Below, piece after piece: positions 1 through 17,039 of a stretch of 39,882 nt of DNA. The position numbers and the translations under genes are program-made. The DNA is from a virus: IMG/VR virus record IMGVR_UViG_3300030419_006516, positions 1-39,882 of that record. One strand, given 5' to 3'. The notes beneath the pieces are model-generated. The model saw nothing but the letters and a program-made list of their open reading frames with translations. It was not told the origin of the DNA and made no database searches. Position 1 is the first letter of the stretch, and each line of letters opens with the position of its first letter.

Positions 1-1644
1 TGTTCCCGAAGTTCCACTAGGGCCTTGGTTTCCTTGAGGGCCTTGGTTTCCTTGAGGGCCAGTCGCGCCTTGAGGGCCAGTTGTACCTTGAGGACCAGTA
101 GCTCCAGTAGCTCCTGAGGTTCCAGATGATCCAGATGAGCCTGAGGAACCAGAAGTTCCTGAAGTCCCTGAACTTCCAGCAGGACCTACAGTTCCTTGAG
201 GGCCTGTGGCTCCTGTTGGGCCTGTGGCTCCTGTTGGGCCTGTGGCTCCTGTTTCTCCTGTGTTTCCTTGAGGACCCGTGTTTCCTTGAGGACCCGTGTT
301 TCCTTGAGGGCCAGTTGCTCCTGAGGTTCCAGATGATCCAGATGATCCAGATGAGCCTGAGGAACCAGATGAGCCTGAAGAGCCAGATGATCCAGAAGTT
401 CCTGAAGTTCCTGAACTTCCAGAAGGACCTACAGTCCCTTGAGGACCAGTCGCGCCTTGAGGACCAGTTGTGCCTTGAGGGCCAGTAGCCCCAGTAGCTC
501 CTGAGGTTCCAGATGATCCAGATGAGCCTGAGGAACCAGAAGTTCCAGAGGTCCCTGAAGTTCCTGAAGTTCCTGAGGTTCCAGCATTACCTTGAGGACC
601 TTGAGGGCCAGTTTCTCCTATTGGTCCTTGGGGGCCAGTAGCCCCAGTAGCTCCTGAGGTTCCAGATGATCCAGATGAGCCTGAGGAACCAGAAGTTCCT
701 GAAGTCCCTGAACTTCCAGCAGGACCTACAGTTCCTTGTGGACCAGTCGCGCCTTGAGGACCAGTTGTGCCTTGAGGGCCAGTTGTGCCTTGAGGGCCAG
801 TAGCCCCAGTAGCTCCTGAGGTTCCAGATGAGCCAGATGAGCCAGATGTACCAGATGAGCCAGATGAACCAGATGAGCCTGAGGAACCAGAAGTTCCTGA
901 AGTCCCTGAACTTCCAGCAGGGCCTACAGTTCCTTGTGGACCAGTCGGGCCAGTTTCTCCTATTGGTCCTTGGGGGCCAGTAGCCCCAGTAGCTCCTGAG
1001 GTTCCAGATGATCCAGATGAACCAGATGTACCAGATGAGCCTGAAGAGCCAGATGATCCAGAAGTTCCTGAAGTTCCTGAACTTCCAGCAGGGCCTACAG
1101 TTCCTTGTGGACCAGTCGCGCCTTGAGGACCAGTAGCTCCAGTAGCTCCTGAGGTTCCAGATGATCCAGATGAGCCTGAGGAGCCAGAAGTTCCAGAGGT
1201 TCCTGAAGTTCCTGAAGAACCTGAAGAGCCAGATGATCCAGAAGTTCCTGAAGTTCCTGAACTTCCAGTAGGACCTACAGTTCCTTGAGGGCCAGTTGCA
1301 CCTTGAGGACCAGTAGCTCCAGTAGCTCCTGAGGTTCCAGATGATCCAGATGATCCTGAGGAACCAGAAGTCCCAGAGGTTCCTGAAGTACCTGAAGTTC
1401 CGCTAGGCCCAGTTGCCCCCGAGGTCCCAGAAGTACCGGCTCCTTGGGGACCTGTTGCTCCTGTTGGACCGGTTGGGCCAGTTGCGCCACCTCCGCATAC
1501 TACCCAAGAACCAGCTTTTTTGATATATATCTTGAGTACGTCAGTAGCGAAATACGTAGCACCGTTAGCAGCCGAGGATAATACTCCTGACTTCTCGCTG
1601 TCCGTGCCTACAAACCTATCTCCTGCGTACCTTCTGACCGACAT
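1..1644 (-). CDS. Collagen-like tail fibre protein, 5' part (3' end off the left edge)
   Basis: The ATG is at 1644 and the frame stays open to the left edge (548 codons seen). The first ~52 residues form a small non-collagen head (start [11 protein letters not shown], then a GATYFATD segment) of a kind found at the N-terminus of phage fibre proteins, probably for virion attachment (inference). From about 1488 leftward the protein is a Gly-X-Y array of about 165 triplets, mostly GTS, GSS, GAT, GPQ and GPT, so very rich in Ser and Thr and almost free of charge. Collagen-like trimers are common shafts of phage fibres, and Thr/Ser in bacterial collagen-like proteins is often O-glycosylated. The gene starts 9 bases after the stop of a TibC-type heptosyltransferase gene and closes that operon. 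No strong Shine-Dalgarno is visible. The C-terminal tip is not in the window. Confidence 0.88.
104..198. repeat. 95-bp direct repeat, copy 1
   Basis: These 95 bases are identical to 644-738. The offset of 540 bp is 60 collagen triplets. Identity at the DNA level, including third codon positions, indicates recent duplication or recombination inside the array. Confidence 0.85.
644..738. repeat. 95-bp direct repeat, copy 2
   Basis: Exact second copy of 104-198 within the same collagen-like gene. The sequences flanking the two copies differ. Confidence 0.85.
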
Positions 1645-1651
1645 TTTAGAT

Positions 1652-1661
1652 AATTACACTA
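1652..1661 (-). promoter_or_regulatory. TAGTGTAATT element before the collagen-like gene
   Basis: The minus strand reads TAGTGTAATT, 7 bases ahead of the ATG at 1644. It overlaps the last codons and stop of the upstream heptosyltransferase gene. The same element occurs before the tape measure gene, the connector gene and both genes of the 17.1-kb divergent junction. It contains TGTAAT, close to a bacterial -10 box. The promoter role is inferred from recurrence only, and the overlap with coding sequence weakens this copy. Confidence 0.3.
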
Positions 1662-2823
1662 TTTTATCTACTTCTTTGATGACTTTATCGGCACTTATTG
1701 ACTTACTGCATTCAAAATTTTTGTTTTCTGGACACCAGTTCCAATCTCCTCGGTCAAATAAATAGTCAGTATTGTGCCAACATCCGTTGCATGCATCTTC
1801 ATTGATGATTCTATGAGGGGTAGAAAACTCATGAAATGCTTTAGTAAAACCAGATATTAAAATTACTTTTTTGTTCAAAGCCCAAGCCACCCAACTCATT
1901 CCAGAGCTTAATCCTATAAAAAAATCACAGTCTCTTATTAGCGTGATAGCGTCTTCAATATTCCTCAAAAAGGGATGAACAACTCCTTTTAACTCCTTTA
2001 AATCCATCCAAGGTAATCTTTCTCTTTGGACTATTACTACTTTATAACCTAAAGAATTTAAATGATCCACCACCCTCTGCCATCCTTCTTCGTTTTGCCA
2101 ATGTTTTAATCCCGCAGTAGAGGCAGTTGAAATGCATACATATTTGCCTTTAGGCTTGAGAGATTTATTCGGAAAACTTGGCTTGTCTAGTTTACATTTT
2201 ATTTCTTTAGGTTCTAGCCCTAGTTGGTCTGAAGCAATTTCAATAAGAGGCAGAGTTCTCCAATCTCTTGGATGGTAATGTTCTATGTTTTCCATATATA
2301 CCCCTATCCACCATTGATATTTTATTTGTAAATGGTTTATTTCCCCGTTTGGTTCTACAAAATTTAATTCTGGGTAAGATTTTTTAAACAAATAGTTGAA
2401 AAAAGTAGCTACATATAATTTACATTTATGGACTTTTCTAAATTCTTCCACTTGAGGCAACCAAGCTATCGTGTCTCCTACAGATTTAGTATCGAAAACT
2501 ATTAAAACATTTTCATTTGACAAGTCTAAGACATGGTCTATTTTTAGTTTATCTTCTTGAAAAACTTTTATATGCCAGTCTATATAATATTTTTCATTTA
2601 CTGATAGCCAATGATTTTTATTTATTTTATTTTCACAAAGAGTCTTTCCGCTCCTTCTGTCAATAAATTGAATTGAGTAAGGACCATCGTCGAAAGAACT
2701 ATCTCCTAATATCTCAACTTTCGCCCCCCTGTTAAAAAACAACTTTATAGTATCTTCGTGGTCTTTTAAGAAAGAGTCAGGATTGAATTCTGTATTTTTA
2801 TACTCTTCTAGAAGATTATCCAT
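1654..2823 (-). CDS. TibC/Aah-type protein O-heptosyltransferase (GT9-like)
   Basis: 389 residues, full length for the family. TibC/Aah enzymes transfer heptose from ADP-heptose to Ser of autotransporter adhesins. The N-terminal lobe starts with the FNRGAKVEI segment, followed by the GT-B motif SVGDTIAWLP near residue 115 and the HKCKLYVA strand. The C-terminal lobe has KHWQNEEGW, GLSSGMSWVAWA and LISGFTKAFHEF, all family hallmarks. A four-Cys cluster closes the protein (C345, C348, C364, C372; CNGCWHN at its start), matching the iron-binding Cys cluster of TibC. The start overlaps the preceding gene by 8 bases, and the next gene is a Ser/Thr-rich collagen-like fibre, a plausible acceptor (inference). 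No autotransporter is encoded nearby. The donor may differ from ADP-heptose. The family call is firm; the substrate is not. Confidence 0.85.
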   Translation of the reverse strand: MDNLLEEYKNTEFNPDSFLKDHEDTIKLFFNRGAKVEILGDSSFDDGPYSIQFIDRRSGKTLCENKINKNHWLSVNEKYYIDWHIKVFQEDKLKIDHVLDLSNENVLIVFDTKSVGDTIAWLPQVEEFRKVHKCKLYVATFFNYLFKKSYPELNFVEPNGEINHLQIKYQWWIGVYMENIEHYHPRDWRTLPLIEIASDQLGLEPKEIKCKLDKPSFPNKSLKPKGKYVCISTASTAGLKHWQNEEGWQRVVDHLNSLGYKVVIVQRERLPWMDLKELKGVVHPFLRNIEDAITLIRDCDFFIGLSSGMSWVAWALNKKVILISGFTKAFHEFSTPHRIINEDACNGCWHNTDYLFDRGDWNWCPENKNFECSKSISADKVIKEVDKIV

Positions 2824-3778
2824 TTTTAAGCTGCCTTAATATCCTGTCTAAAACTTCTGCGATAACAAAAGAGCTTCTTCTTTTGGAAAATTCTCTTGCC
2901 GAATTTACGTGCCCATCCCAGTCCTCAATTATTTTCTGTAAAGCGGCTGTAACCGAAGGCATGTTTGCTTCAGCGGGGGATATTGCTCCTTTATAGTCAG
3001 GAAGCCTGCCTGTGTTTGAAGATATGACAGGCATCCCACTTGACATACATTCAAGAATTTCATGAGTTGGTGAAGCCAAGTCTTTAGGGCGAAAATCTAG
3101 AAGTATATCGTTTTCTTTAACAACGTCTTCAATGTTCCAAGAATCGCAAACTATATTGCATTTAGGATTTGAATCAAAAAAGTTATATTTTTTTAATACG
3201 TTACCAAAAAAATCACATCCATAATTTAAAAATGATATATTTAGACTAAATTTATTAGCAAATTCATTACATAATATATAATTTAATTTATCTTCTCCTT
3301 GGCTATCGTTTTGACCAATACAAATAAGCTTTATGTCATTTAAATTAATTTTAGGTCTATCAAAATTAAAGAGCTTATGATCTTCGAGAATACTATGACT
3401 AAGAAATATGCATTTTTCTTTAAACTCTTCGAAGACTAAAAACCAGTCGTAAGATGGAAATATAGAAAATACAGAGTTTCCAATTGCATATTTCGATTCT
3501 AAATAAGAAGTTGAGCCGACTTTAAAAGCTTCCAGATCATGAAGGTAAAAAATATATTTTTTGCCAGCGTCAGCAAACTCTTTTGCGTCTTTAGCATTAT
3601 GAATAATTATAAAATTATATTCATCGCTTTTTTCCAATGCTTTCGTTAGATTATCAAAGACATCAACAGTATAAAACATCTTTTCGAGCCCAGCTTCCAA
3701 GTTCTCGGACGTTTTCTTTATGTCAAGACTCTCTTGTTGACTTAAACTTCGATCTGTTGAAACAATAGAGATTTTCAT
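2816..3778 (-). CDS. GT-B glycosyltransferase (GT4-like)
   Basis: 320 residues. The second half looks like the donor-binding lobe of family 4 glycosyltransferases. Near residue 240 there is SPTHEILECMSSGMPVIS, then NTGRLPDY, the usual nucleotide-sugar loop and acidic helix. Only the second Glu of the EX7E motif is present; the first position is Ala. The N-terminal half has alternating strand and helix segments (FIIIHNA, YIFYLHDLEAF) fitting a Rossmann lobe, but it is short for the family. No signal peptide or membrane segment is seen, so a cytoplasmic enzyme is likely. It overlaps the next gene by 8 bases and follows the half-TibC gene after 2 bases, so it belongs to the translationally coupled cassette. 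Donor and acceptor cannot be read from the sequence. Confidence 0.7.
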   Translation of the reverse strand: MKISIVSTDRSLSQQESLDIKKTSENLEAGLEKMFYTVDVFDNLTKALEKSDEYNFIIIHNAKDAKEFADAGKKYIFYLHDLEAFKVGSTSYLESKYAIGNSVFSIFPSYDWFLVFEEFKEKCIFLSHSILEDHKLFNFDRPKINLNDIKLICIGQNDSQGEDKLNYILCNEFANKFSLNISFLNYGCDFFGNVLKKYNFFDSNPKCNIVCDSWNIEDVVKENDILLDFRPKDLASPTHEILECMSSGMPVISSNTGRLPDYKGAISPAEANMPSVTAALQKIIEDWDGHVNSAREFSKRRSSFVIAEVLDRILRQLKNG

Positions 3779-3780
3779 TT

Positions 3781-4674
3781 TTAAATATCTATATATTTTA
3801 TTTCACTTGGGACAATCTCTGTCCCTTCGTATTGTTCTTGAGGATTATGCTGCCTAGGGTCAGCCTTTCTTAAAGATAAAGCGGAGTTATCTCTGCCTTT
3901 GAGTTTTTTTAGTTTAGCCTCTAGTCCCATTTTGTCTAAACCTAAAATATGATCAATTATTTCTTGAGATGTTAAGTCTTTCCAATCTATTGGATTCTTA
4001 TAAGACTCATAAAGTTTCCACCAATGTTCCCTAACAAGACCTACGTCCTGCTGAAGAAAATTTCCAAACATATTCCATCCGTTTTCCCACACGGGATAGC
4101 GACCAATTCTATAAGTCGCATAATATCCTTTTTTGTCATTCCAAGTGAATTCCTTTGAAGATGTGTCAGGAATATCAAATGGCTCTTTTTTATCTACATT
4201 ATAAGCTGTCTTATGAATTGGGTCATCGAAGTAAGCATCCTTAGGGAAACATCTTGTTTTGGCCGTATTAAAATTAGAAAAAATTTCATAAAAATCACTA
4301 AATATAAATAAATTACATTTATGTTTTTTCTGGTAAAAAATACATCTATCTAGCCAAATTCTAGCTTCATAAAGATCTTTCGTATCTAATATTATTGCTA
4401 CATTTTTATTACAATCACTATATATGTGTTCAGAGACTAAGATCAGGCCTTCCTGATCGTCGTAATCGTAAACATTAATAAACCAATCGGTATACCATTC
4501 CCTGAAAAGACCATAGGTAGTGTTCGCTGGCCTAACTAAATCGATCAAAAGCCTTGGCTGATATCTATCGCCAAGATAAAATTCGCCAATTTCCACGAGG
4601 TACTCTTTTTGGGGATTTTCAGAATCCCGAATTTCGAAAAAAGGCCCAGCATTGAAAGAGTAGTTAAATTCCAT
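3781..4674 (-). CDS. TibC N-terminal-lobe-like protein lacking the GT domain
   Basis: 297 residues. By eye it aligns with the first ~150 residues of the TibC-like enzyme two genes downstream: FNAGPFFEI against FNRGAKVEI, DWFINVYDY against DWHIKVFQE, and KKHKCNLFIF against KVHKCKLYVA. The enzyme's SVGDTIAW stretch is replaced by KDLYEARIWL, so the Gly-Asp-Thr of the active-site loop is lost. The C-terminal donor-binding lobe and its four-Cys cluster are absent. Instead there is a Trp/Tyr-rich stretch (about 170-220), a basic helix with KLKKLKGRD and a polar tail. It may be a catalytically dead partner or acceptor-recognition subunit (inference). The start overlaps the carbamoyltransferase gene by 11 bases. 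The frame is intact, so it is not simply a decayed gene. Confidence 0.6.
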   Translation of the reverse strand: MEFNYSFNAGPFFEIRDSENPQKEYLVEIGEFYLGDRYQPRLLIDLVRPANTTYGLFREWYTDWFINVYDYDDQEGLILVSEHIYSDCNKNVAIILDTKDLYEARIWLDRCIFYQKKHKCNLFIFSDFYEIFSNFNTAKTRCFPKDAYFDDPIHKTAYNVDKKEPFDIPDTSSKEFTWNDKKGYYATYRIGRYPVWENGWNMFGNFLQQDVGLVREHWWKLYESYKNPIDWKDLTSQEIIDHILGLDKMGLEAKLKKLKGRDNSALSLRKADPRQHNPQEQYEGTEIVPSEIKYIDI

Positions 4675-6283
4675 TTTGATTTTTAAAATAAATATAATCT
4701 TCCGCCACTAGAAGATCAATCATACCGCTCTCTAAATGAGCAAGAGCTTGAGATGGGCTGTCAATTATTGGCTCCCCGTGACCATTAAAAGAAGTATTTA
4801 ACAAGATAGGTAGCCCAGAGATCTTTTCATACGCTTTTAAGATTGAGTGGAACTTAGGATTCCTTTCCTCGTATACTAATTGAGGTCTAGCGGTGCCATC
4901 TGCCTCGTGGACGACAGCTGGAATTTTTTCAGCCCAACCTTCTTTAGTATCGTAACACATTGTCATAAACTCCGCAGCCATTCTTGACTTATTAATATGA
5001 AATATTTCATCTGCTTTCTCTGCTAAGACAAATGGGGCGAAGGGCATGATCTCATGTCTTCCCAACCTTTCGTTTAAAACTTGATGAGTATCAGGGTCTG
5101 TAACTTTAACTAAAATACTTCTTGCTCCTAAAGCTCTTGGCCCGTGCTCGAACTTTCCTTGAAACCAACCTGCTATTTTATTTTGATGCAAATACTCTGC
5201 TAAAAGCTCTGGAGAATACGGAGTTTTAGTATATTCGAAATTTATCGACTTTTCTATTTCTTCATTAGAATAATCTAAACCTAAGAAAACGTTATCTAAC
5301 CTTTTAGTTTTTCTTTCCCCATTTAAATAAGAAATAGTCAAAGCGGCACCAAGAGATAAACCGTCGTCTCCCATAGGGGGAGAAATATAAACTTCCTCCA
5401 CCCAAGGCAGCTCATTGATTTTTTGATTTAGTTTAACATTTGCAAATAGACCTCCTGATAGAACTAACTTTTTATATTCTGGGTATCTAGAATTTAAATC
5501 ATTTAGAAACTTTTTCATTTCTTCTTCTAAAAGAAGCTGAACGTTGTAGGCTATATCTGCTTTATATTCTATTTCTGGACGTTTTAAATCTCGTTTTTCA
5601 GGGTCATCTAAATAATCTAAATGTTTTGTTTTTTTAAGGTTTGTTAAGACAAAAGAAGCTTTCCCCGGGGCATCTGCATAAGAGAAGCTCAAATCTCCAT
5701 TATAAAAAAATATATTATTTAATTGAGAGTATATAATTTCATTATATTTTCCATGAGCAGCGAGCCCTGTAACCTTACCCTCATCTTTCAACATTTGCCA
5801 GCCTAAGTTAACTGTAGTATGAGCGTATATTTGACCAGCAGAAGCAGCAGTCCATAAAGGAATACTTTTGATCAAAGTCATTTTATTATTTTCTGCTAGA
5901 TATACTTTACCAAAATACCTATCTCCTCCTCCGTCGTAAGATACTACTAAAGTTTTATCCGAAAAGCCGGAAGTCAGGTACGCTCCGTAACAATGACAAG
6001 TATGATGATTGATTAGAGTTACTTTTTTAGGGTCAGGATTTAAAACTTTTACAAAATCATTACAAAACGGAGCGCAAACAGCTATATGGTCGAAGTCGTC
6101 AATCTTAAGTTGATACTTCTCCATAATAGTCCTGCAAGCAAGTCTAGGCACCCTTCCAAAATCGTTGCCAGATTTTATCCTCTTAAGCCTTTCCTCTTCT
6201 ATACAACAGATAATCTCTCCGTCTTTGACGTAAGAAGCTGAAGCATTATGGCTTCCTCCAAATATACCTAAAATTTTACTCAT
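4664..6283 (-). CDS. O-carbamoyltransferase, NodU/CmcH/TobZ family
   Basis: 539 residues and apparently complete. The family transfers carbamoyl from carbamoyl phosphate, through carbamoyl-adenylate, to hydroxyls of sugars and antibiotics. The N-terminal Kae1-like domain shows HNASA (from H12), NHHTCHCYGAY (metal-binding His set, near 92), SYDGGGD, KVTGLAAHG and LSGGLFANVKLN. The C-terminal domain shows KFEHGPRALGARSIL, MPFAPFVL and LLNTSFNGHGEPI. Every motif expected of an active enzyme is present. It overlaps its neighbours on both sides (8 and 11 bases), so it is co-translated with glycosyltransferases. The likely role is carbamoylation of the sugar built by the cassette. NodU homologues occur in some phages and many polysaccharide clusters, so the class is certain and the acceptor unknown. 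Confidence 0.93.
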   Translation of the reverse strand: MSKILGIFGGSHNASASYVKDGEIICCIEEERLKRIKSGNDFGRVPRLACRTIMEKYQLKIDDFDHIAVCAPFCNDFVKVLNPDPKKVTLINHHTCHCYGAYLTSGFSDKTLVVSYDGGGDRYFGKVYLAENNKMTLIKSIPLWTAASAGQIYAHTTVNLGWQMLKDEGKVTGLAAHGKYNEIIYSQLNNIFFYNGDLSFSYADAPGKASFVLTNLKKTKHLDYLDDPEKRDLKRPEIEYKADIAYNVQLLLEEEMKKFLNDLNSRYPEYKKLVLSGGLFANVKLNQKINELPWVEEVYISPPMGDDGLSLGAALTISYLNGERKTKRLDNVFLGLDYSNEEIEKSINFEYTKTPYSPELLAEYLHQNKIAGWFQGKFEHGPRALGARSILVKVTDPDTHQVLNERLGRHEIMPFAPFVLAEKADEIFHINKSRMAAEFMTMCYDTKEGWAEKIPAVVHEADGTARPQLVYEERNPKFHSILKAYEKISGLPILLNTSFNGHGEPIIDSPSQALAHLESGMIDLLVAEDYIYFKNQNGI

Positions 6284-9236
6284 AGAGAGATTTTTCGACT
6301 TTGACGTTCACCCAGTCAAGTATTTTAAGATACTCTATACATTCGTTCATCTTCTCAGGGTCTTTCATGCCGTGAAATAGTTTTACTAGGCTTTTGTCTT
6401 TTTTGAAACATAGCCAACCCCTATCGGAGCCTTCGTGTTCATGTATGGCAATTTGAGCCCTATTCATTTCTTCGTTCCAAATATCTTCAACATTACATTC
6501 ATCAAAGTATTTTATAGTATCTACATTAACTGTATTCAAAAACGTTTGAGGCAAACATTTTTTTAGATTATATTTCCAGAAAAGCACATTCACAATTGTT
6601 TCTTCATGGTATGGGGTGAGTCTCCTCCAGTCACTCATTATGTATTTATCCTTGCAGAGAGAGTCCCACTCTTCAATAAACTTTCTGCATTCTGGGCTAA
6701 ACAGGATAGTATTGGTCTGTCTATACCAAGTTCTGTTTTGCTCTGGAACGTTCATTAGGTCCATTAGAGGCTTTTCAACTCCGTATTCTCCGCCTGAAGC
6801 CATAACGAAAAAAGGTCCCTCTGTGACTAGTGGGTAATTCTCTAACTCTTTAGCGTGGTCAAAAACGGAGTCAAAGTTTATATTACAAATCATGTCCGTG
6901 TCTACGTAGACGCAGAGTTCCGCTCCTTTATCCAAGGCGTCCAACATTACTCCTGCTTTTTGCGTTAAAGTTCTAAATGTCCCTTCATCTGTGCCTTTTT
7001 TAAAATAATCCCCTTTCTGGTCTCTTACTAACTCTGGCTCTTTTTTATAATCAGTATAGTAAGGGATTTTTATTAAATTCGGGTAATCGTAGTCAGCCTC
7101 GCAATTCATAGTATACAAAGCTATGGGGACTTCAGAGAACTCAGCAAGACTTTTAACGAGGCATTCGGCGGTTTTTAAATACTGTTCTGTAGTATGAGTT
7201 ATAACCACTTTAGGAGGAAGAGAGATAGACTCTTCGGAAGAGTTTAGAATGTTTGATATAGTCTCACAGTTTTCTTCTATATCGTTACTCAGAAAAGTAA
7301 CATCTGGATTATCGTCGTACGCGCCCATATAAACCTCTAGATTTCTTAAAGCTAGTTTCATGCCCCAAGATAAAGCCTCTTTAATTACTATAGGATTTGT
7401 CTCTCTGTCTTCTGGGCTTCCTTTAGAGGTGAAACAAAACAAATCCATACATTGATAAAATTTTTCGACATCATCTCTTTCTCCCCATATTATACAGTTA
7501 TCTGTCTTGCTTTCAACGACAGGCCCCCAATATTCTTCGAAGTTGCTAGCTAAATTACCTATAAAATGAAAAAGTATTTTTTCTTTTTTTAATTTTTTAG
7601 CATATTCGAATATTTCGCCTTGATTTTTTCTTCTCGTAAAAAGCCCGACATTAAGCACGTGTTTATAGGATGGGTCTAACCCTAAAGCTCTTAAAGACTC
7701 TTCTCTATTTGGTCTTTCTTTTTTTTCTATTGGGTACTCGATAACAACTTTAGGCACATTAAAGTTTTTATATTTTTCTATATGCCATTTACTAATAAAT
7801 ATAAATTTATCAGGAAGATATTTTTTGTATAAATTAGGCTCAAAACCAGAATCATGAGAAGTTTCAAATATCTTATATTTCCTATCTGAAGAATATAGTT
7901 TTCTAGCTAATTCATCTGGAAAACCTGCAAAAGAATATTTCTCTGGAACTTCCTCTAAGTGAACATAGTCAGGTTGAAAGGATTGAATTATGTCCATTAG
8001 CTTGAGCCTGTTTTTTACATGGTCCTCATATTCTTCGTTTAGATTGCCTAGAGTAATGAATCTGTCCTCTGGAACCATGTTCAATATTTTTTCTCTTTGG
8101 ACCACGAAAGCTCCACTCCAAAATGAAAATTCGACTACATAAACGTCACATCCTGCGTCTAAAAGAGTCTCAAGCCTTTTTCTGAAAACCTCAGGCATAC
8201 CTCCTGTAGACAAGTGTTCTGCCACTAACAAGACCTTTGTTTTTTTTGTTTCTTGACTTTTCTCTAAGCCTTTAAAAGAAGAATAAGCTTTAATACAACT
8301 CTCTTTTACTTGTTCTGCCTCTGGATGACACTCAAAAGTCTCTTTCTTTTCTAAGCATGAAATTATTGGGGGCACTCCATGTATTGAGCCCCATTCTGGT
8401 ATACCATATTTGACATCTGAACCACAAAATATATCACAAGGCCCTTTTACATACTCGTATTTATAGTCTTGAGATGCTTTTCTGTAAGGAGCTCTAAGTA
8501 TTGGGTCAATTGAAGAGCCTAATTGAATAATATGGGTTTCTGTTGTACCCGCTAAATGAAGCAAGCCCGAATCCATAGTAACAAAGCACGAAGAGTTATT
8601 TATGACATGCCAAGTCTCATCGAGGCTTAATTTATTACAAAAGTTTATACCTCTTTTTACTTCTATAGGAAAAGCAGTTTTTTCCTGCCTGCCCCAGAAT
8701 CCTGTTTCGTAATTATCTTTTCCAACTATAATGACGGGAACACCAGAGTCGTTTAGCCCGTCGACAAGATCTTGGAACTTTTCTACGCTCCAAGTTCTAG
8801 ATGGCCAAGTGGAGGCGGCGTGAATGCATACGTACCCTGAAGATGGAAAAGAATCAAGCAGGCTTTGGTTAATCGGCTCTGGATAGAAATCACAATGCAT
8901 CTCTTTCGGCTTGAGCATCATTCCTAGTTCAGTAGCGTGAAATTGCCTTATATCATAAGTATTGTGTTTTCTTTCTGGTTCGTGGGTGCCGTGATCAGCT
9001 ATCTTGAAAAAAGTTTTAAATGTTTCGTACTTCTTTTCACACTCTTTAGCTTTTTCGTTCTCATCTCCATCAAACTTTTCAACGCTTAAGACGTATGGGT
9101 TGTTTTGGAAGACTATAGGATTGTGAGTTACCACATGAAACTTTTCTCCATAGCTCGTAGAAAGCTTTCTTAAGATTGGGGTAGAGCAGAGAGTATCCCC
9201 AAAGGCCCTAGACCCTACTAAGTAGCATTTCTCCAT
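6276..9236 (-). CDS. Three-module glycosyltransferase (GT9-like + GT4-like + GT-A)
   Basis: 986 residues with three glycosyltransferase modules. Module 1 (about 1-315) is GT9 heptosyltransferase-like: SRAFGDTLCSTPILRKL at the N-terminus, IHAASTWPSRTWSVEKF, then DSGLLHLAGT. It ends in a spaced Cys set (CDIFC, then two more Cys) resembling the TibC iron site. Module 2 (about 328-665) is GT-B family 4-like: EHLSTGGMPEVFRK, NVGLFTRRKNQGEIF and an intact EX7E in ETNPIVIKEALSWG. Module 3 (about 672-960) is GT-A-like with a DXD motif, YVDTDMIC at D779-D781, and WYRQTNTILFSPE downstream. The start overlaps the HAD gene stop (TAATG) and the end overlaps the carbamoyltransferase gene. One polypeptide could build a short oligosaccharide in sequence (inference). 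No membrane segment is seen. Confidence 0.85.
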   Translation of the reverse strand: MEKCYLVGSRAFGDTLCSTPILRKLSTSYGEKFHVVTHNPIVFQNNPYVLSVEKFDGDENEKAKECEKKYETFKTFFKIADHGTHEPERKHNTYDIRQFHATELGMMLKPKEMHCDFYPEPINQSLLDSFPSSGYVCIHAASTWPSRTWSVEKFQDLVDGLNDSGVPVIIVGKDNYETGFWGRQEKTAFPIEVKRGINFCNKLSLDETWHVINNSSCFVTMDSGLLHLAGTTETHIIQLGSSIDPILRAPYRKASQDYKYEYVKGPCDIFCGSDVKYGIPEWGSIHGVPPIISCLEKKETFECHPEAEQVKESCIKAYSSFKGLEKSQETKKTKVLLVAEHLSTGGMPEVFRKRLETLLDAGCDVYVVEFSFWSGAFVVQREKILNMVPEDRFITLGNLNEEYEDHVKNRLKLMDIIQSFQPDYVHLEEVPEKYSFAGFPDELARKLYSSDRKYKIFETSHDSGFEPNLYKKYLPDKFIFISKWHIEKYKNFNVPKVVIEYPIEKKERPNREESLRALGLDPSYKHVLNVGLFTRRKNQGEIFEYAKKLKKEKILFHFIGNLASNFEEYWGPVVESKTDNCIIWGERDDVEKFYQCMDLFCFTSKGSPEDRETNPIVIKEALSWGMKLALRNLEVYMGAYDDNPDVTFLSNDIEENCETISNILNSSEESISLPPKVVITHTTEQYLKTAECLVKSLAEFSEVPIALYTMNCEADYDYPNLIKIPYYTDYKKEPELVRDQKGDYFKKGTDEGTFRTLTQKAGVMLDALDKGAELCVYVDTDMICNINFDSVFDHAKELENYPLVTEGPFFVMASGGEYGVEKPLMDLMNVPEQNRTWYRQTNTILFSPECRKFIEEWDSLCKDKYIMSDWRRLTPYHEETIVNVLFWKYNLKKCLPQTFLNTVNVDTIKYFDECNVEDIWNEEMNRAQIAIHEHEGSDRGWLCFKKDKSLVKLFHGMKDPEKMNECIEYLKILDWVNVKVEKSLYE

Positions 9237-9664
9237 TACCCTGAAGAATAAGCTCCAGCCATTAAATCTTCCGAAGGAATGCCTTCGTCTCTATTTACAT
9301 TAATAGCGTAAGCTGTTTTAAGGGGCTCTGCGTTGCCTGCAGAGCCAATAGGCTTAATATCGTTAACAAGTACTCTGGGTCCGGCCCTAAGATCGAATAT
9401 GACTCTGTCGTACCTTATCTTAAAATGGTCCAACATTCTTAATGTGTGATCAGAGTGTCTTGCATCTCTAGCTGTTGTTATGACGATTGTGTCTTCCTTG
9501 GGAATTTTATTTAAAAACTTAACGCTTTCGTCAATAGGTTTCTCTTTTTTATGGCTATCATCCCCTGAGTCTTCTATTAAAACATCTAAAGAATCATTAG
9601 AAAGATGTTTAACCAAGGTTCCGTCTATGTCTATAAACCATGTTTTATTAACCGATTCGTACAT
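9236..9664 (-). CDS. HAD-superfamily phosphatase
   Basis: 142 residues, a minimal HAD fold. Motif I is WFIDIDGTLVKH with nucleophile D12 and acid/base D14. Motif II is the Thr in IVITTARDARH. A downstream acidic motif is VLVNDIKP. There is little cap domain, as in small sugar-phosphate or capsule-biosynthesis phosphatases. It opens the sugar cassette and is coupled to the three-module glycosyltransferase by a TAATG overlap, so a role in making a sugar precursor is likely, for example a GmhB-like or capsule-type phosphatase (inference). It lies 36 bases after the TIG protein stop. Nucleic-acid end repair by a PNKP-type phosphatase is an alternative, but the context argues against it. Confidence 0.75.
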   Translation of the reverse strand: MYESVNKTWFIDIDGTLVKHLSNDSLDVLIEDSGDDSHKKEKPIDESVKFLNKIPKEDTIVITTARDARHSDHTLRMLDHFKIRYDRVIFDLRAGPRVLVNDIKPIGSAGNAEPLKTAYAINVNRDEGIPSEDLMAGAYSSG

Positions 9665-9700: not shown

Positions 9701-10288
9701 TTATAAAGTAAAAGAAGACAAGATTATTCCAGTTTCAGAGGGGGAATCTACGTTTATGTATCCAAAAGCGCTATCTTTTGAAGTATAAATTTTCGATTCA
9801 TAGTCATTTCCCGAATGGAGAAAGAGGTTGTTATTTACATGAAGCTCATCTAAATATGTAGTAAAGCTTCCAGTTACAGCTTCGTGATACATTCCCCTTT
9901 TCGATTTTGTACCTCCGAAGCCGGAGGTCACAACCCTAAACATTATACTTTGAGGGAATCTAGGGAAGTCTGTCGGGATTACTCCACTTATTGCAACTTT
10001 GTTAGCTTCTGGCACATAGCTTAAGTTAGCATCCTTTACTAAACCTGTAGTAAAATCTATGCCTGTACTGCTGTTAGATAACAATTCAACGTTAGTGAGG
10101 CCTTTTGCGTCTTTTTTCTCGTCAGCAAAAGAGGGGTGCATTAAGTACAAATTAGTTACCCCGCTTAGTCTGGCTCCGGTTATCGTGAAAGAAGCCCCTA
10201 GTGGGCCAGACGTAGGAGAAAACCCAGATATAGACGGGCCTTGGCTAGTGTTTTCAGCTAAATAATATGTAGGTAGATTTAAAGGCAT
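9701..10288 (-). CDS. Small IPT/TIG-domain virion protein
   Basis: 195 residues. Residues ~17-105 form an IPT/TIG Ig-like domain. The signature is PSISGFSPTSGPLGASF followed by TITGARLSGVTNLYL, the same pattern as in the giant protein encoded 4 bases upstream. The C-terminal half (HVNNNLFLHSGNDYESKIY onward) is beta-rich and looks like the region where fibre proteins attach or end. It has no signal peptide, so export with the virion is likely. It follows the tail-tube and TIG-array genes in one operon and probably encodes an accessory adhesin or fibre component. It may have been detached from the TIG array by gene fission (inference). Confidence 0.7.
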   Translation of the reverse strand: MPLNLPTYYLAENTSQGPSISGFSPTSGPLGASFTITGARLSGVTNLYLMHPSFADEKKDAKGLTNVELLSNSSTGIDFTTGLVKDANLSYVPEANKVAISGVIPTDFPRFPQSIMFRVVTSGFGGTKSKRGMYHEAVTGSFTTYLDELHVNNNLFLHSGNDYESKIYTSKDSAFGYINVDSPSETGIILSSFTL

Positions 10289-10292
10289 TGTG

Positions 10293-13200
10293 TTATGGGC
10301 AAATATCGTCTAGTAGAAATTTATTAATTCTGTCTTGAGCATTCGTAACAAATGCTGGGTCAGGTATTACGTCTTTATCTCCACAATCAATAGAATAGTG
10401 ATCTACAGATCCTCCCTTGGGGGCATCAACTTTTGCGTAATTTCGACCGTCTTCCCACACGTCTAACTCCACTTGTTCATCTATGTTGCAGTTTGTATCA
10501 CATGTAGAGCAAAGAGTCATAATTAAATCAACTTCATGCCCTGCCATTATCGTGCCGACGATGCCAAGACCGCCAAGATTCAAGCCTTCTCCGAAAGTTC
10601 CAGAAAGTATGACTACCCCCGTGTCGTAAGTTCCCCAAGATTTTCCATAAATAGTTTTGTCTCCAGTTAAGTGCCCTGACAGGCTCCCTGTTACAGGGCC
10701 ATAGTAAGACTTGATAGGGTCGTCTTTAGTGGCGATTAGATATTTATCACTTACATTAGTGTGAAATCCTGAAAGATTCTTAGTTACTATTTTGCTCACT
10801 ACTGATTCATCCCAATACCCTTTAAAACCTTTATCAAAACCTTGCTGGGAGAAGGCTTGCCTACCATAAGTCGCTACTAAGTTTCTAGAAACGTTAAAGC
10901 AATTAACTCCTGTCATGTAGAACTGCTCTCCTACTGCAAAAGGCAAGCCGACCAAGCCGTACTTTCCTCCGTCAGAATATGTTTTGTTTGCTCCGGGAGT
11001 AAGTTTTCTTATTTCTCCTGAAATTTCGGGCTGAGGAATAAAGCTCTGAGCAGATTTGTCTACAACCATACCATGAGAGTTTGTAAAGAATGTTTCGTGG
11101 GGGCCGGTAGCTTTAGTTTCGGTTTCTTTTTTGCCGCTAACTAAATATATACTTTCACATTGGATTTCTCTATTTGGATATATGTAAGCTCCTGTAGCTC
11201 CCCAAGTCGTACCCATGTAGCTATTGCCATAATACTTAGCTTTCTTTGTAACGTCAGAAGAATCTACTCCTCCAGAAGGATGCACGAACCTAAAATCTTC
11301 TGCTAGAAATTGATCTTGATTAGGAGGATTCCAAGCTCCTCTAAACCTGAGATCAAGGCCGGGAAAGTTTAGGTTAACTCCTTTTACTAAAATTTTCTGA
11401 TCATCGAGGAAGGCAAGCTCTGGGTTGATTTTTTCTATTCTGCTAAGGAATAATTGATTGGAAGACTCTACTTCGTCTCCTTCTCTACTCTTCAACTTAA
11501 CATAACCGCTCTTCGCTAAATTACTGGGAGTAAGGAAATATAAGCCTGTTCCGCCTTCGAGCATCGTTGGCTTGCAGGGCACTTCTATATAGTATTCAGG
11601 ATTATATGTTATAGCATCTTGTTTGTGAGCAGAAGTGTTGGGAGCAAGGGGATTGCGAATAGTCCCGGGTCCATCAGGAATCATCTCATCCTCATTCAAT
11701 TCCATATTGTCGCCAAGTACCCATCCGCCACCCATTCGAGGCTTCCAGTTTGGATCATTATAATTTACATCTTGGACAAGAGCATCGAGCTTTATCCCAC
11801 TAACAAAAACTGTTCCTACTTTGTCTAAGTTTCTTCCTGATACATAAATTCTTCTATTGAATCCTGCTCCCTCTGGGGTAAACCCATCTATTTGAGGAAC
11901 GGGGGTAAGCATGCTAAGATCCTCATCAGATCTAACGTGTCCTCCCGTAGCCTGCACTACGATTGCTCCCCCTAATGTGCCGGTAGGGACTTGGAAAGAG
12001 AATTGCGTTCCATATATGCTTTTTTCTATGGCGCTATGGCCGTGATTCGTATACTTCCAATTTCCAAGCAAAGGTGAATTTTTAGTTTTTAAATAATTGC
12101 TTGAGGTTATTCGAGTATTTCCTAAACGGACATAGTTTATTCCAGTCAAAAACGCTCCACTGACTGTAACCGTATCCCCTTCTGATGCAGAAGCTCTCAA
12201 AGTAGAGCTACTTTTATCTGTGATACTGAATCCGCTAATAGTAGGCCTTAAGAACGCAAATATGTCATTGTTCTTGTCGGTGATGCTTTTATTAGGGTGG
12301 ACTTTTGAGCCAAAGCCTTTGACTTCGCTTATACTTTTGCCGTTATCGACATAGAACTTAATCCCTGTGTCATTTAAAGCTTGCCTAGACGTTCCTGTTA
12401 GAGCCGGAAGATAGAAGGATAATCCGGTATATTGGCCTGAAAGCTTATGAGTGAGAGTAGAAGCAGTACCAGCGGTTCCTGCTTCTCCCGCTGAGCCTGC
12501 ATTATAGCCACCAGCAGCATAGGAAGTAGTCGGAATGCCTCTGGCTGTATCGCTAAGGTAATCGTTTATATAAACTAAAGAGTTTGGATAAAGGTTTTCT
12601 CCACTTATATAAATTTCATTACTTATAGTTCCGGATAAAGAGTCCTGAGGTGTTATTTCCGTATCTATTTGTACATAAACGCCACTCGGTTTAGGTTCCC
12701 CCATTACTAGCAGTCCAGAGGTTGAAGCCCCGCTGCAAGTGAAAAGACCCCTATCTGTTTCTAAAACTACGTCAAATATGCCATGACCGGTGAATAGGAA
12801 ATTTTGACCTGTCAAATTATCAAACGCGGTTCCAGCTGTCCCTGCTGTACTAGATGATGCCCCTCCTCCAGCCCATCCAGAAGGTATGTCGAATTGAACT
12901 AAATCGGCATTTATACCGTTTGACCCTTTAGAAACATTTAGAGTAGTAGAGAATCCTGAAACGCCTCCATGAATAAGCCCTATGTTTAGTGCTAGGGAGT
13001 TATTAGTATCTTTGCTTGGACGGAGCTGTCCGGAAAGCGTTTCGTCCCCGGCTTTAGACGTGCTTCTTTTAACTAATTTTACTGCAGTAGCCTGATCAAA
13101 GTAATGGCCACTTAGGGTCACTCTCCCTCCAGCCATACCTGAATGTGGGGTAACAGACTTGATTACAGGACATGGCAAGACTGCAGAGAAGTCCATGCCA

Positions 13201-15260
13201 GATGGATGAGATTCCCCTTGGGGGTTAAGTATGCTTAGTAAGCCGCTTTTCGCATTTTGTGGAATAACTCCAGTTAGGACAGTATATGGATTAGTTGCAT
13301 CAGGGTAAACTATCCCCGTGGCTCCATTAAAGTCGACTGAGTAAGCGTTACTAGATGGGGTATCATGATGAGCTGTAACATCATAAAGCAAGTTAGAATA
13401 AAAATTCCCACCAGAAATTCGAATATCTTCCCCTATTTCGCCACTAGCCACTTGGCCTCCGAGTATAAGATCAGAGCTAGAAAAATTACCGCTAATTCCG
13501 GAGATATATACAGTTGGCTCGTAATTTGTTGGAGCTGTTGTCGTAACGCCGCTGGCTCCAGAAATTCTGATGATCCCTCCAGCATAGCCAGTGCTAAGCT
13601 TAGGAGCCGCCATAATCATAGTTTTGTCCCCAATTCTTTCTCCACTTTCAGTTAAGACTTGAAAGCCTGAGCTAGTGGCCCCACTCAAAGGAGCCAAAGG
13701 AAGGTTATTTACCCCACCAGTAGACTGCACAGTTCCTCCGGAAAGATAGGGAGTCATACATGAAAAGCCTTTGCCAGATAAGGTTATCAACCCATTTGGC
13801 CTATTGCTATTAGAGAAGTGGACGGAGTCAATAACAGGAAAAGGTACGAAAAGCCTTCCGTTCATATGGGCGTCATTCGTGCTTGTCGCGTTTCTTAAAG
13901 AAGACTTCAATAATAAATGTCCAGATATGCAGCCATCAGGAACAGTGGCTTTCAATTCAGAAGCAGACCCAATAGCCATTATCTCAAAATCAGCATTCAT
14001 TCTAGTAAGAGACTCGGAACCTTGAGGACCTGAGTCTTTTACGAAAAACACTTCATCGACTTCATTAAAGTATTGACCTTTTACAGTCATCTTGTCTAGG
14101 TATCTACCCACATAAGACTCTGTGTTCCCATCTGACTCATAGTAACCTGTTACTTTTATACCCGGGTCTGTCACGCTAACATTGCTACTAGAAGAAACTC
14201 CATGCTCGCAAGCTTCTGTAAATATTGTAATTTTGTTTGATGTAGCTGCTTGAGGAACAGTAAATTGAATTGTAGTCTTACTAGTGACTGAGTAGTCTCT
14301 TACGTTTACTTCTCCAATTTTAACTTGAGTAACGTCAACGAAGTTTGTTCCGGTTACAGTATAAGCTGTTCCCCAAGCATGAGCTCCTACTGTGTTGGTT
14401 ACGGTCGGGCATACTCCAAGATGAGCTTGCTCAACTGAGAGAGTAGTGGATATCAAGTTGCCAACGGATGTATGTATATTTCTTCTTTTGATTACGCCGC
14501 TAACAGGAAACGTTTCCGATACTCCGGGTAATTCAGGATGTTGAAGGGTTGCTGTTAGGTCTATTGATTTACCATATATAGGCAAATCCCCACTTAACGA
14601 ATCGACCTCTAAGGAGGCTTGAACTACTTTGGGACCAAAGACTACATGGTTGGGAAGTATATCTCCTATTTGATAGCTTGGCTCTACTACGCCAGCATAT
14701 GTATAAGAAAAGCTTCTTATATTGTCTACTCTATGTTTTATTTCTTGAGTCTCGGCACCGACTTCATTAGAAGACATCGTGACATCCTGAACGTTTAAGG
14801 TTGGGGTGTTCTCTGCAGCAATGATGTTAGCCCTGCTAGTTTCAGAATGCTTTCCGCTCAGAGCTCCGAAAAATCTTATTGATGCTGATGCTGAGACTGG
14901 CTGGTTAGGCGAAAAACTGGCATCATAGCTAGTTAAATAACCAGACGAAAAATTTAGTCCTCCAAAGTTTCCGCTTAAGGTTCTATATTTAGAAGCATTT
15001 CCAGAATCATTAATAATATAGTCTTTTAATGGGTCGACTCCGGTAAGACTATAAGTAAGGTTTAGCGTCCCATTTATTCCGTCTTCAGGAGCGAAAGTTC
15101 GAGTATATCTTTTTTCAGCTAAATAAGATGGCGATGCGCTAGCGCTGAGATCTAAAGAAACAGTTTGAGCCAGAAACTCTTTAGGATCAGACCCGGCAGG
15201 CCCTTGAGCTGGGTCATAATCAGCTATAGTAATCTTAGAGTTTTTATAGTTTAAATACAT
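10293..15260 (-). CDS. Giant tail adhesin: tail-tube-like N-terminus plus IPT/TIG array
   Basis: 1655 residues. Residues ~20-275 resemble the two preceding proteins and the major tail protein: LNLTYSLTG, then SSGYLTSYDASF, then a second unit with SFSYTYAG and VEPSYQIGDI. From ~290 onward about ten IPT/TIG-like Ig repeats can be picked out by lines such as VIKSVTPHSGMAGGRVTLSG, VPQIDGFTPEGAG, RPTISGFSI and VIDSVHFSNS. TIG domains are common in adhesins and phage tail decorations. The C-terminus is different, with a four-Cys cluster (LCSTCDTNC, then YSIDCGD) that may bind metal or form disulphides. It starts 1 base after the previous stop. It is likely a surface-binding tail subunit whose N-terminus docks into a tube-like ring (inference). 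Confidence 0.75.
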   Translation of the reverse strand: MYLNYKNSKITIADYDPAQGPAGSDPKEFLAQTVSLDLSASASPSYLAEKRYTRTFAPEDGINGTLNLTYSLTGVDPLKDYIINDSGNASKYRTLSGNFGGLNFSSGYLTSYDASFSPNQPVSASASIRFFGALSGKHSETSRANIIAAENTPTLNVQDVTMSSNEVGAETQEIKHRVDNIRSFSYTYAGVVEPSYQIGDILPNHVVFGPKVVQASLEVDSLSGDLPIYGKSIDLTATLQHPELPGVSETFPVSGVIKRRNIHTSVGNLISTTLSVEQAHLGVCPTVTNTVGAHAWGTAYTVTGTNFVDVTQVKIGEVNVRDYSVTSKTTIQFTVPQAATSNKITIFTEACEHGVSSSSNVSVTDPGIKVTGYYESDGNTESYVGRYLDKMTVKGQYFNEVDEVFFVKDSGPQGSESLTRMNADFEIMAIGSASELKATVPDGCISGHLLLKSSLRNATSTNDAHMNGRLFVPFPVIDSVHFSNSNRPNGLITLSGKGFSCMTPYLSGGTVQSTGGVNNLPLAPLSGATSSGFQVLTESGERIGDKTMIMAAPKLSTGYAGGIIRISGASGVTTTAPTNYEPTVYISGISGNFSSSDLILGGQVASGEIGEDIRISGGNFYSNLLYDVTAHHDTPSSNAYSVDFNGATGIVYPDATNPYTVLTGVIPQNAKSGLLSILNPQGESHPSGMDFSAVLPCPVIKSVTPHSGMAGGRVTLSGHYFDQATAVKLVKRSTSKAGDETLSGQLRPSKDTNNSLALNIGLIHGGVSGFSTTLNVSKGSNGINADLVQFDIPSGWAGGGASSSTAGTAGTAFDNLTGQNFLFTGHGIFDVVLETDRGLFTCSGASTSGLLVMGEPKPSGVYVQIDTEITPQDSLSGTISNEIYISGENLYPNSLVYINDYLSDTARGIPTTSYAAGGYNAGSAGEAGTAGTASTLTHKLSGQYTGLSFYLPALTGTSRQALNDTGIKFYVDNGKSISEVKGFGSKVHPNKSITDKNNDIFAFLRPTISGFSITDKSSSTLRASASEGDTVTVSGAFLTGINYVRLGNTRITSSNYLKTKNSPLLGNWKYTNHGHSAIEKSIYGTQFSFQVPTGTLGGAIVVQATGGHVRSDEDLSMLTPVPQIDGFTPEGAGFNRRIYVSGRNLDKVGTVFVSGIKLDALVQDVNYNDPNWKPRMGGGWVLGDNMELNEDEMIPDGPGTIRNPLAPNTSAHKQDAITYNPEYYIEVPCKPTMLEGGTGLYFLTPSNLAKSGYVKLKSREGDEVESSNQLFLSRIEKINPELAFLDDQKILVKGVNLNFPGLDLRFRGAWNPPNQDQFLAEDFRFVHPSGGVDSSDVTKKAKYYGNSYMGTTWGATGAYIYPNREIQCESIYLVSGKKETETKATGPHETFFTNSHGMVVDKSAQSFIPQPEISGEIRKLTPGANKTYSDGGKYGLVGLPFAVGEQFYMTGVNCFNVSRNLVATYGRQAFSQQGFDKGFKGYWDESVVSKIVTKNLSGFHTNVSDKYLIATKDDPIKSYYGPVTGSLSGHLTGDKTIYGKSWGTYDTGVVILSGTFGEGLNLGGLGIVGTIMAGHEVDLIMTLCSTCDTNCNIDEQVELDVWEDGRNYAKVDAPKGGSVDHYSIDCGDKDVIPDPAFVTNAQDRINKFLLDDICP

Positions 15261-15261
15261 T

Positions 15262-16128
15262 CTAGAAATATCTTGTTGCTACAATTCTTGTTTTCGGAAA
15301 GTCATCTAAGCCTACTTGTACATCAGTCTTAGACATGTGAGCGCCAGAAAGATCTATCGTTAGTGAGGAATCGGGCTTATCATTATTACAAGCTAATAAA
15401 ACAGGAGCGAAAGTAATGTCCCCAGAGAAGCTCCCCGTGTCAGTAAGGCTCAATTCTTGTCCGCTTATACCGCTTACGTGAGCGTTGTAGAATTTAGCTT
15501 TCGTGCTAATTATTGTCTCTGTTCCAGCATAAAATTCAACTTGAGATGGAACTTGCTTGTTGATTACGTAAACAGGGTCATGTTTAGCTTCAAAAGAATA
15601 AGAAAAATCAAAAGTAGGGTTTTTTCTAGGGTGGTTTCCTGATTCAACCAAATAAGTGCTCCATCCGTTAGTAGTAGATTTTGTTGTGTTATATTGGACT
15701 GCAGCGATTCCTGCTGTGCCGTGACTGCCAAAGTTCCCAGCGTGCTTTCCGGAGATTAAATCATAACATTGAAATGTCGCTGAAGCTTCCAGCAACCTGT
15801 TCGGAGCTGAAGTTATCTGATAAGAGTTTAAATAATAATCTCCAGTTGTACCGGCAAATGAAATTCTGGTTTTAGCTTGCCTATTATCTTTTAGTAACCT
15901 AACTACTTCAAAACAAGGCTCTGACTCGGATTCAAGAATGTATGAAATATTAATATTCCCTAGCGCTGGTCCTTTAGCTGATACATAGCTAGACCCTTTT
16001 CTTCCTACTGAATATGTTTCGGAGACATTTGTTTCAATAGACAAGCGAGCTTGATTGGCAAGGATGCCTGTCCAACCGGCTGCCCCTTTGGGTTGCAAAG
16101 CTATATCTACATCTTCGGAATATATCAT
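15262..16128 (-). CDS. Tail-tube-like protein (paralogue 2)
   Basis: 288 residues made of two similar beta-rich halves (about 25-130 and 168-285). Half 1 has the pattern INISYILES followed by DYYLNSYQITSAP and EASATFQCYD. Half 2 has DFSYSFEAKHDPVYVIN. The same lines recur in the neighbouring 304-residue protein, in the N-terminus of the giant TIG protein and in the major tail protein at 34596-36233. It overlaps the upstream gene by an ATGA junction and the next gene begins 1 base after its stop, so the three are likely made in fixed ratio. A tail-tube or distal-tail ring subunit is the best reading, but family membership rests on visual alignment only. Confidence 0.6.
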   Translation of the reverse strand: MIYSEDVDIALQPKGAAGWTGILANQARLSIETNVSETYSVGRKGSSYVSAKGPALGNINISYILESESEPCFEVVRLLKDNRQAKTRISFAGTTGDYYLNSYQITSAPNRLLEASATFQCYDLISGKHAGNFGSHGTAGIAAVQYNTTKSTTNGWSTYLVESGNHPRKNPTFDFSYSFEAKHDPVYVINKQVPSQVEFYAGTETIISTKAKFYNAHVSGISGQELSLTDTGSFSGDITFAPVLLACNNDKPDSSLTIDLSGAHMSKTDVQVGLDDFPKTRIVATRYF

Positions 16129-17039
16129 ACTTTGTTTTTATTTATTAAAGCTCTATAGCCTAAAGTAGCTACTACGTTTCCGTCTATATTAGCCCCATGA
16201 GATTGGGAAACCAAAAGTAAATCAGAAAAAGAGTAAGAAACTATTTCAGACTCTGTATAGTGATCGTAAAAAGTTAAAGTTAGGTTTTCTGCAGTTTCTG
16301 AACAAGGGAAGTCCCTTAACGCTTTCTGTTCATAGCCCGCTTTAGACCCCATATTATGAGCGTCTAAATCTATTTGAAAACTGCATAGAACTTCTATTGG
16401 GAAATTTCTTTTTACTTCTATAGGGGTTTTTTCTCCTAAAGCGTAAATTGGATTTCTTCCTATATTCATAGCTATAGAAAAACTATTTAATCTATTAGAC
16501 TCAAAGTCGTTTATATTGATTTTTAGACTTCTTGGGTCCGCTATCTTTAAATCAAAATCTTTATTTTCATTGCTTTGTATTGAGGAATAGTCGCTAGACA
16601 CTAAAGAGGAAGTGGCTTCGGAGCTTGGGAGTTTTCCTATATTACCTACTACTCCAATTTCTGCATCAACTCTTGGGATTTGCCCTATCCCGCAATTCAA
16701 AGTATAAGAATTCAAAAAACCTGAAGTAAAAGCTATATCTATTGAGTCAGAATCTAGCGATTTACCTTCTTCTGTCTCGTACAGGTAGCCGTTAAACGGA
16801 GAATCTCCTGTATGTTTGATAATCGGGTCTCCAGTAAAAATGAATGAAGAAAGGGATACATTGCCCGCATAAGCCCCATCGACCACATGATGGACACCTG
16901 TTTGACCTATATGACGCAGAGGCACAGAAGGTACAGCATAAGAAAACTGTAAACTTTGAGCGCCTCTTACCTCATTGGTATTAATAAAGAACCTTTGGTT
17001 CTCTCTCCTTAACCTTAATGGACCCGGAATAAACGACAT
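16125..17039 (-). CDS. Tail-tube-like protein (paralogue 1)
   Basis: 304 residues, first gene of the leftward operon. It shows the same two-unit layout as its neighbours: NVSLSSFIFTGDP then SGFLNSYTLNCG in the first half, and NSFSIAMNIGRNPIYALGEK in the second, close to SFSLDFGLSRTPLQRLGVK of the major tail protein. It starts 8 bases after an inverted-repeat element shared with the divergent gpM gene. A distal tail or tail-tube ring protein at the tip is likely, since the locus sits directly beside the tail-tip genes. Which of the paralogues is the functional distal tail protein cannot be decided from sequence. Confidence 0.6.
   Translation of the reverse strand: MSFIPGPLRLRRENQRFFINTNEVRGAQSLQFSYAVPSVPLRHIGQTGVHHVVDGAYAGNVSLSSFIFTGDPIIKHTGDSPFNGYLYETEEGKSLDSDSIDIAFTSGFLNSYTLNCGIGQIPRVDAEIGVVGNIGKLPSSEATSSLVSSDYSSIQSNENKDFDLKIADPRSLKININDFESNRLNSFSIAMNIGRNPIYALGEKTPIEVKRNFPIEVLCSFQIDLDAHNMGSKAGYEQKALRDFPCSETAENLTLTFYDHYTESEIVSYSFSDLLLVSQSHGANIDGNVVATLGYRALINKNKV

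Follow-up and report, generated by a model that had tools for sequence, protein, structure and literature searches.

A putative phage-encoded glycosylation cassette couples a TibC-type enzyme with a Ser/Thr-rich collagen-like fibre

Viral relatives of the bacterial autotransporter heptosyltransferase TibC lie beside genes for Ser/Thr-rich, collagen-like fibres much more often than control genes do, and from the sequence comparisons described here we infer that the linked fibre is probably O-glycosylated by the TibC-type enzyme. The case is built around one stretch of viral DNA, in the following called the window, which comprises positions 1 to 39,882 of the IMG/VR record IMGVR_UViG_3300030419_006516 and is classed there as a linear fragment of 39,882 bases.

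Gene content and conservation of the cassette

Positions 1-9664 of the window hold a cassette of sugar-enzyme genes and a collagen-like fibre gene, all on the minus strand (Table 1). This had been claimed in a sequence-only reading of the same DNA, and the matches to Pfam, PHROG, TIGR04414, and PDB entries agree with it. The genes follow each other in the order HAD, fusion of GT9, GT4, and GT-A modules, NodU-type carbamoyltransferase, half-TibC, GT4-like glycosyltransferase, TibC, and fibre, with overlaps of 1, 8, 11, and 8 bp and gaps of 2 bp and, between TibC and the start of the fibre, 9 bp. A transmembrane-like stretch was found in none of the cassette enzymes. The fibre gene is incomplete because it runs off the window edge; its sequenced part contains a long run of 164 Gly-X-Y triplets, as is characteristic for collagen-like phage fibres, and 82 of these triplets are G[ST][ST].

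Table 1. Features of the cassette in the window, and chromosomal G[ST][ST]-repeat proteins adjoining TibC homologues
Feature	Position	Strand	Evidence or remark
HAD-superfamily phosphatase-like, 142 aa	9236..9664	-	weak Pfam/PHROG HAD matches
986-aa glycosyltransferase	6276-9236	-	GT9 + GT4 + GT-A modules
Module 1 of the 986-aa protein: GT9 (heptosyltransferase-like) GT-B domain	8262..9236	-	PF01075 1.4e-12
Module 2 of the 986-aa protein: GT4 domain	7167..8246	-	PF00534/PF13692
Module 3 of the 986-aa protein: GT-A, invariant DxD	6276..7166	-	alignment, model, Foldseek
NodU/TobZ-type O-carbamoyltransferase	4664..6283	-	PF16861 5e-54, PF02543 4e-34, phrog_1601
Half-TibC, 297 aa	3781..4674	-	weak TIGR04414 match; Foldseek TibC 4rap E 6e-11
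GT4-like glycosyltransferase	2816..3778	-	weak PF13692/PF00534
Full-length TibC/BAHT-family protein O-glycosyltransferase	1654..2823	-	TIGR04414 284 bits, TibC structure match, conserved residues
Collagen-like fibre gene, N-terminal part, proposed acceptor	1..1644	-	PF01391 3e-72, composition
Lipoprotein-like protein with G[ST][ST] stretch	L101:11133-11441		7 bp from TibC ORF
Lipoprotein- or periplasmic-like protein with G[ST][ST] stretch	L095:3596-3934		adjoins TibC homologue
Lipoprotein- or periplasmic-like protein with G[ST][ST] stretch	L091:11291-11917		adjoins TibC homologue
G[ST][ST] protein of the Methylobacter pair L099/L100	L099:9001-9864		adjoins TibC homologue

Two sister phages (L372/L014 and L352) keep the order of the GT9-GT4-GT-A fusion, the carbamoyltransferase, half-TibC, the GT4-like gene, TibC, and the fibre head. 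Sequence identity is 59-74%, for the GT4-like gene only 34-38%, and the neighbouring tail genes show a similar degree of conservation. At the corresponding place, both sister phages lack the HAD gene, so this gene is probably accessory and does not belong to the core, in contrast to its listing in the sequence-only reading. Its family matches are weak, too, and on these two grounds we rejected it as an enzyme of a heptose pathway.

The rest of the window contains lambda-type tail genes (PHROG matches phrog_14, phrog_18, phrog_30, and phrog_32). A plus-strand tail-tip module is surrounded by minus-strand genes (at 10293, 15262, 16125, and 34596; window 9701-17039 and 34596-36233) that resemble related Ig/TIG-rich tail proteins and have no Pfam or PHROG assignment, the weak TIG match of the gene at 9701 being the only one among them. 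Both contig ends fall inside collagen repeats. At the opposite window edge there is a second collagen-like gene (38849-39880), which is richer in GPQ/GNT and has a Peptidase_S74 chaperone at its C-terminus. A circular genome, in which both collagen ends would be parts of one gene, was rejected because the ends do not overlap and the IMG/VR class is linear. For these reasons, and because no head genes were recognised within the window, the collagen repeats at the left and right ends probably belong to separate genes.

Linkage of TibC relatives to collagen-like genes

A profile scan gave at least 540 viral relatives of TibC, of which 80 were kept. A locus was counted as linked if it contained a Gly-X-Y run of at least ten triplets. 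Such runs are present in 58 of 87 viral TibC loci compared to 3 of 59 large terminase loci (Fisher, 4e-15) and 3 of 44 carbamoyltransferase loci (1e-11), where all loci were taken among the matches listed and are hence not strictly random samples, and where the IMG/VR records are fragments. The terminase loci are shorter than the TibC loci (mean size 10.9 kb versus 17.3 kb), but the carbamoyltransferase loci, at 18.2 kb, are no shorter. Dereplication at 80% identity leaves 53 TibC clusters, the window counted, and 34 of them are linked to Gly-X-Y genes.

The sequence-only reading had proposed to survey phage genomes for TibC-like genes near Gly-X-Y genes, and the linkage is seen in the reverse direction as well. 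TIGR04414 matches were found in 22 of 50 records with Ser/Thr-rich Gly-X-Y genes (20 of them over the cut-off) and in none of 50 records with Pro-rich ones, two samples that may differ in their hosts. Within the size range of 15-82 kb the counts are 10 of 35 against 0 of 34 (p 9e-4). In addition, TibC is located at most 10 kb from the repeat gene in 11 of the 12 long records that carry both, for which random placement predicts a mean of 24% (combined p 4.5e-5, a value that is somewhat optimistic owing to related records). In about one third of the TibC loci no Gly-X-Y gene is in reach, many of these loci being truncated, and TibC is missing from 28 of the 50 Ser/Thr-rich Gly-X-Y records, many of which are fragments. 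The linkage to the fibre module could partly reflect a tendency of sugar genes to gather in the hypervariable regions for host recognition.

One isolated phage, Mel-JY01 of Microcystis, encodes a protein with the annotation methyltransferase FkbM (L011:4747-8430) whose C-terminal part is a TibC domain. Its 1016-aa Gly-X-Y gene (L011:2-3052) is found about 4 kb from this fusion, and the phage offers a culturable test case.

The TibC-type enzyme and its donor sugar

The TibC-type protein of the window matches TIGR04414 with 284 bits, above the curated cut-off of 200 bits, over model positions 7-374, and the crystal structure of TibC (PDB 4rap) with an E-value of 1e-58 over 370 residues. The roles of the TibC residues Asp110, Thr226, Lys230, Trp305, Arg286, and Pro300 and of the iron finger are known (PMC4358343). 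The catalytic Asp110, the donor-phosphate residues Thr226 and Lys230, Trp305, and the four cysteines of the iron finger (C345, C348, C364, and C372) are invariant in all 86 viral sequences, window included, and the window enzyme should thus be active as judged by its residues. Arg286 touches the adenine of ADP-heptose, and its loss weakens TibC (PMC4358343). This arginine is present in 7 and replaced in 79 of the 86 viral enzymes, and is alanine in the window. The position of Pro300, the residue selecting D,D-heptose (PMC4358343), is serine in 61 and glycine in 24 of the 86 viral enzymes. Because the arginine that reads the adenine is lost in most viral enzymes, it cannot be assumed that their donor is ADP-heptose. 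The heptose-based glycan that had been proposed before is therefore not borne out, and that the sugar on the fibre is a heptose seems to us possible but somewhat doubtful.

The viral enzymes resemble the bacterial autotransporter heptosyltransferases TibC and AAH (TIGR04414; PDB 4RAP and 4RB4) over their full length, including the N-terminal barrel, the catalytic Asp, the phosphate-binding Thr and Lys, the sugar-contacting Trp, and the iron finger with its four cysteines. They differ, however, in mostly lacking Arg286, in having Ser or Gly instead of Pro300, in being separated by a 100/100 branch, and in often being fused to other glycosyltransferases. Also, TibC and AAH adjoin autotransporters while the viral enzymes adjoin fibres with Gly-Ser/Thr repeats. 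An autotransporter neighbour, the usual acceptor of TibC/BAHT enzymes, is not found in the window, where the Gly-X-Y fibre is present instead. Further hallmarks of the TibC/BAHT family are the transfer of heptose to Ser of proteins and a dodecameric assembly.

Companion glycosyltransferases

The 986-aa glycosyltransferase consists of three modules, as had been proposed, and the third can now be specified as a GT-A fold. This module has no Pfam match, but its DxD motif is invariant in 17 aligned sequences, and its model (pLDDT 88) matches the GT-A galactosyltransferases of family GT6 in Foldseek with an E-value of 1e-5. Relatives of the GT4 module are present in 70 of the 87 viral TibC loci, those of the GT9 module in 30, and those of the fast-evolving GT4-like gene in 21. 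In four other loci (L005-L007 and L009, around 11000-13900) sulfotransferase-like and kinase-like genes were seen by eye to adjoin TibC and the fibre, a hint that other phages may carry sulfated glycans on their fibres.

Carbamoyltransferase and half-TibC

The carbamoyltransferase contains both the N and the C domain of the Carbam_trans family and matches carbamoyltransferases in the PDB with E-values of 1e-55. It shares the domain order and a strong sequence match with the O-carbamoyltransferases TobZ and NodU, but is coupled to the half-TibC protein, and its acceptor is only putative. Half-TibC comprises the N-terminal beta-barrel and the N-lobe of TibC, and its model (pLDDT 74) shows the TibC fold across the N-terminal half, with TibC as the best Foldseek match. 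The donor lobe with its residues (Lys230) and the cysteine motif of the iron finger are all absent, so that the protein is not a complete GT-B fold, and the position of the catalytic Asp is mostly Glu in an alignment by eye. In GT-B enzymes the acceptor is usually bound by the N-lobe. Therefore, half-TibC may be an acceptor-binding remnant.

The half-TibC gene directly follows the carbamoyltransferase in most of the 44 carbamoyltransferase loci (33 by tblastn), and 26 of 27 carbamoyltransferase (NodU) records have a TIGR04414 match, which is a full-length enzyme in 10. As far as gene neighbourhoods tell, the two form a conserved module, often without a collagen gene nearby. Several of the loci L352-L387 contain a tandem pair of carbamoyltransferases. 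No half-TibC was found in annotated phage records. A general linkage between carbamoyltransferases and collagen-like genes was dropped, as a Gly-X-Y run is in reach in only 3 of the 44 loci. The carbamoylated fibre glycan of the sequence-only reading is plausible for the lineage of the window, but the linkage gives no indication of it beyond this lineage, and we regard carbamoylation of the fibre glycan as slightly short of an even prospect. The role of half-TibC as an adaptor we infer from these arrangements. A wider proposal has two parts: that a distinct TibC subfamily, shared by phages and bacteria, is devoted to the O-glycosylation of Gly-[Ser/Thr]-[Ser/Thr] repeat proteins, and that in the lineage of the window the half-TibC, having lost the donor lobe, is an acceptor-binding adaptor bringing the carbamoyltransferase to its substrate. 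It is rather unlikely that both parts hold.

TibC homologues in bacterial chromosomes

TibC relatives in bacterial genomes often have as neighbours small proteins that look exported and contain G[ST][ST] repeats (Table 1), and recognisable phage genes are not present around these chromosomal pairs (L101, L095, L091, and L099/L100). The higher-scoring bacterial members (480-650 bits in a whole-genome search) are canonical enzymes, mostly beside autotransporter-like genes. Searches of 369 and another 300 bacterial genomes did not reveal TibC/G[ST][ST] pairs beyond the known ones, and the family is rare. In the maximum-likelihood tree, a 100/100 branch separates the repeat-linked group from the autotransporter group, and the chromosomal pairs do not fall at a single position among the viral sequences. 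The strongest argument for a G[ST][ST] acceptor is that one enzyme subfamily is repeatedly found beside one type of repeat, both in phages and in bacterial chromosomes.

Alternative explanations

The best-known alternative is that the cassette alters the LPS or O-antigen of the host, for example to block superinfection. Its place beside the fibre would then have no other cause than that the two evolve together within the host-recognition module. Family GT9 is that of the LPS heptosyltransferases, and glycosyltransferases in the host-recognition clusters of pelagimyophages have been interpreted as modifiers of host LPS/O-antigen (PMC7029224). However, the proven acceptors of the TibC family are proteins, the cassette encodes no membrane protein, and the association is specific to Ser/Thr-rich over Pro-rich repeats and extends to bacterial chromosomes without any fibre module, which makes this explanation improbable.

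Slightly less probable still is that TibC glycosylates another virion or host protein, such as an Ig-like tail protein or an adhesin, and not the fibre. Canonical TibC relatives modify autotransporters, and some TibC loci are devoid of any Gly-X-Y gene, the entire records of L010, L013, and L075 having no collagen match. The TibC homologue of L010 (9998-11086) is part of a T4-like structural module and is encoded just upstream of a tail-sheath-like gene, and because its record lacks a collagen match the acceptor must be something other than collagen there. Against this explanation for the window stands the association with G[ST][ST] proteins, which is bidirectional, specific for composition, and found across a deep tree.

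Modification of phage DNA by the enzymes, above all by the carbamoyltransferase (carbamoylated or glycosylated hydroxymethyl bases), has a precedent in the phage carbamoyltransferase of the NodU/TobZ superfamily that makes 5-carbamoyloxymethylcytosine (PMC8670742), but is disfavoured and very improbable given that thymidylate synthase accompanies the DNA-type carbamoyltransferases and that contigs on which group-1 glycosyltransferases flank the carbamoyltransferase were unmodified (PMC8670742), that no TET/JBP gene scored over the cut-off in 34 records (the window being a fragment), that the cassette sits in the tail module, and that no action on DNA is known for TibC-type enzymes.

Proposed mechanism and precedents

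Glycosylation of the phage's own fibre remains the preferred reading, and the cassette would then be a phage-encoded operon for virion glycosylation. The TibC-type enzyme would add the first sugar to Ser or Thr of the G[ST][ST] repeats in the cytoplasm of the infected cell before assembly, and the GT9, GT4, GT-A, and GT4-like modules would extend the glycan afterwards, in this presumed order of addition. The NodU-type carbamoyltransferase may carbamoylate the glycan, probably guided by half-TibC, which retains the acceptor side of the TibC fold. The modification might stiffen the fibre, protect it from proteases, mask it, or influence the choice of receptor. From the earlier proposal of a protein O-glycosylation cassette aimed at the own fibre, the core is carried by the linkage in both directions, the sister phages, and the bacterial pairs, but its claims on HAD, heptose, and carbamoyl linkage are not.

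Virion glycosylation by phage-encoded glycosyltransferases has reportedly been observed in mycobacteriophages. There, too, phage enzymes decorate structural proteins of the phage, but they belong to other GT families, and the acceptors are capsid and tail proteins. For phage Maravista, a glycosylated capsid has been suggested (PMC11256854). The closest parallel in gene arrangement is found in Clostridioides difficile, in which sgtA adjoins bclA3 and SgtA glycosylates Thr and Ser in the collagen repeats (PMC7157674). As in this system (and BclA of Bacillus), the glycosyltransferase gene of the window lies beside a collagen-like gene, whose repeat Thr/Ser would be the target. SgtA, however, uses UDP-GlcNAc and the GPT repeats of a spore protein and is by its description not of the TibC family, while the window combines a TibC-family enzyme with a G[ST][ST] phage fibre. 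In the literature searched, we found neither a paper joining phage, collagen-like proteins, and heptosyltransferase, nor a report of a dedicated modifying enzyme for Ser/Thr-rich Gly-X-Y phage fibres.

Conclusions

Ser/Thr-rich Gly-X-Y fibres are a common feature of environmental phages. If the proposed reading is true, a large class of phage fibres would be glycosylated by enzymes that were previously tied to bacterial autotransporters, which would have a bearing on fibre stability, host recognition, and the laboratory production of fibres. The bacterial G[ST][ST]-repeat proteins would gain a testable modification, and the carbamoyltransferases a candidate targeting partner.
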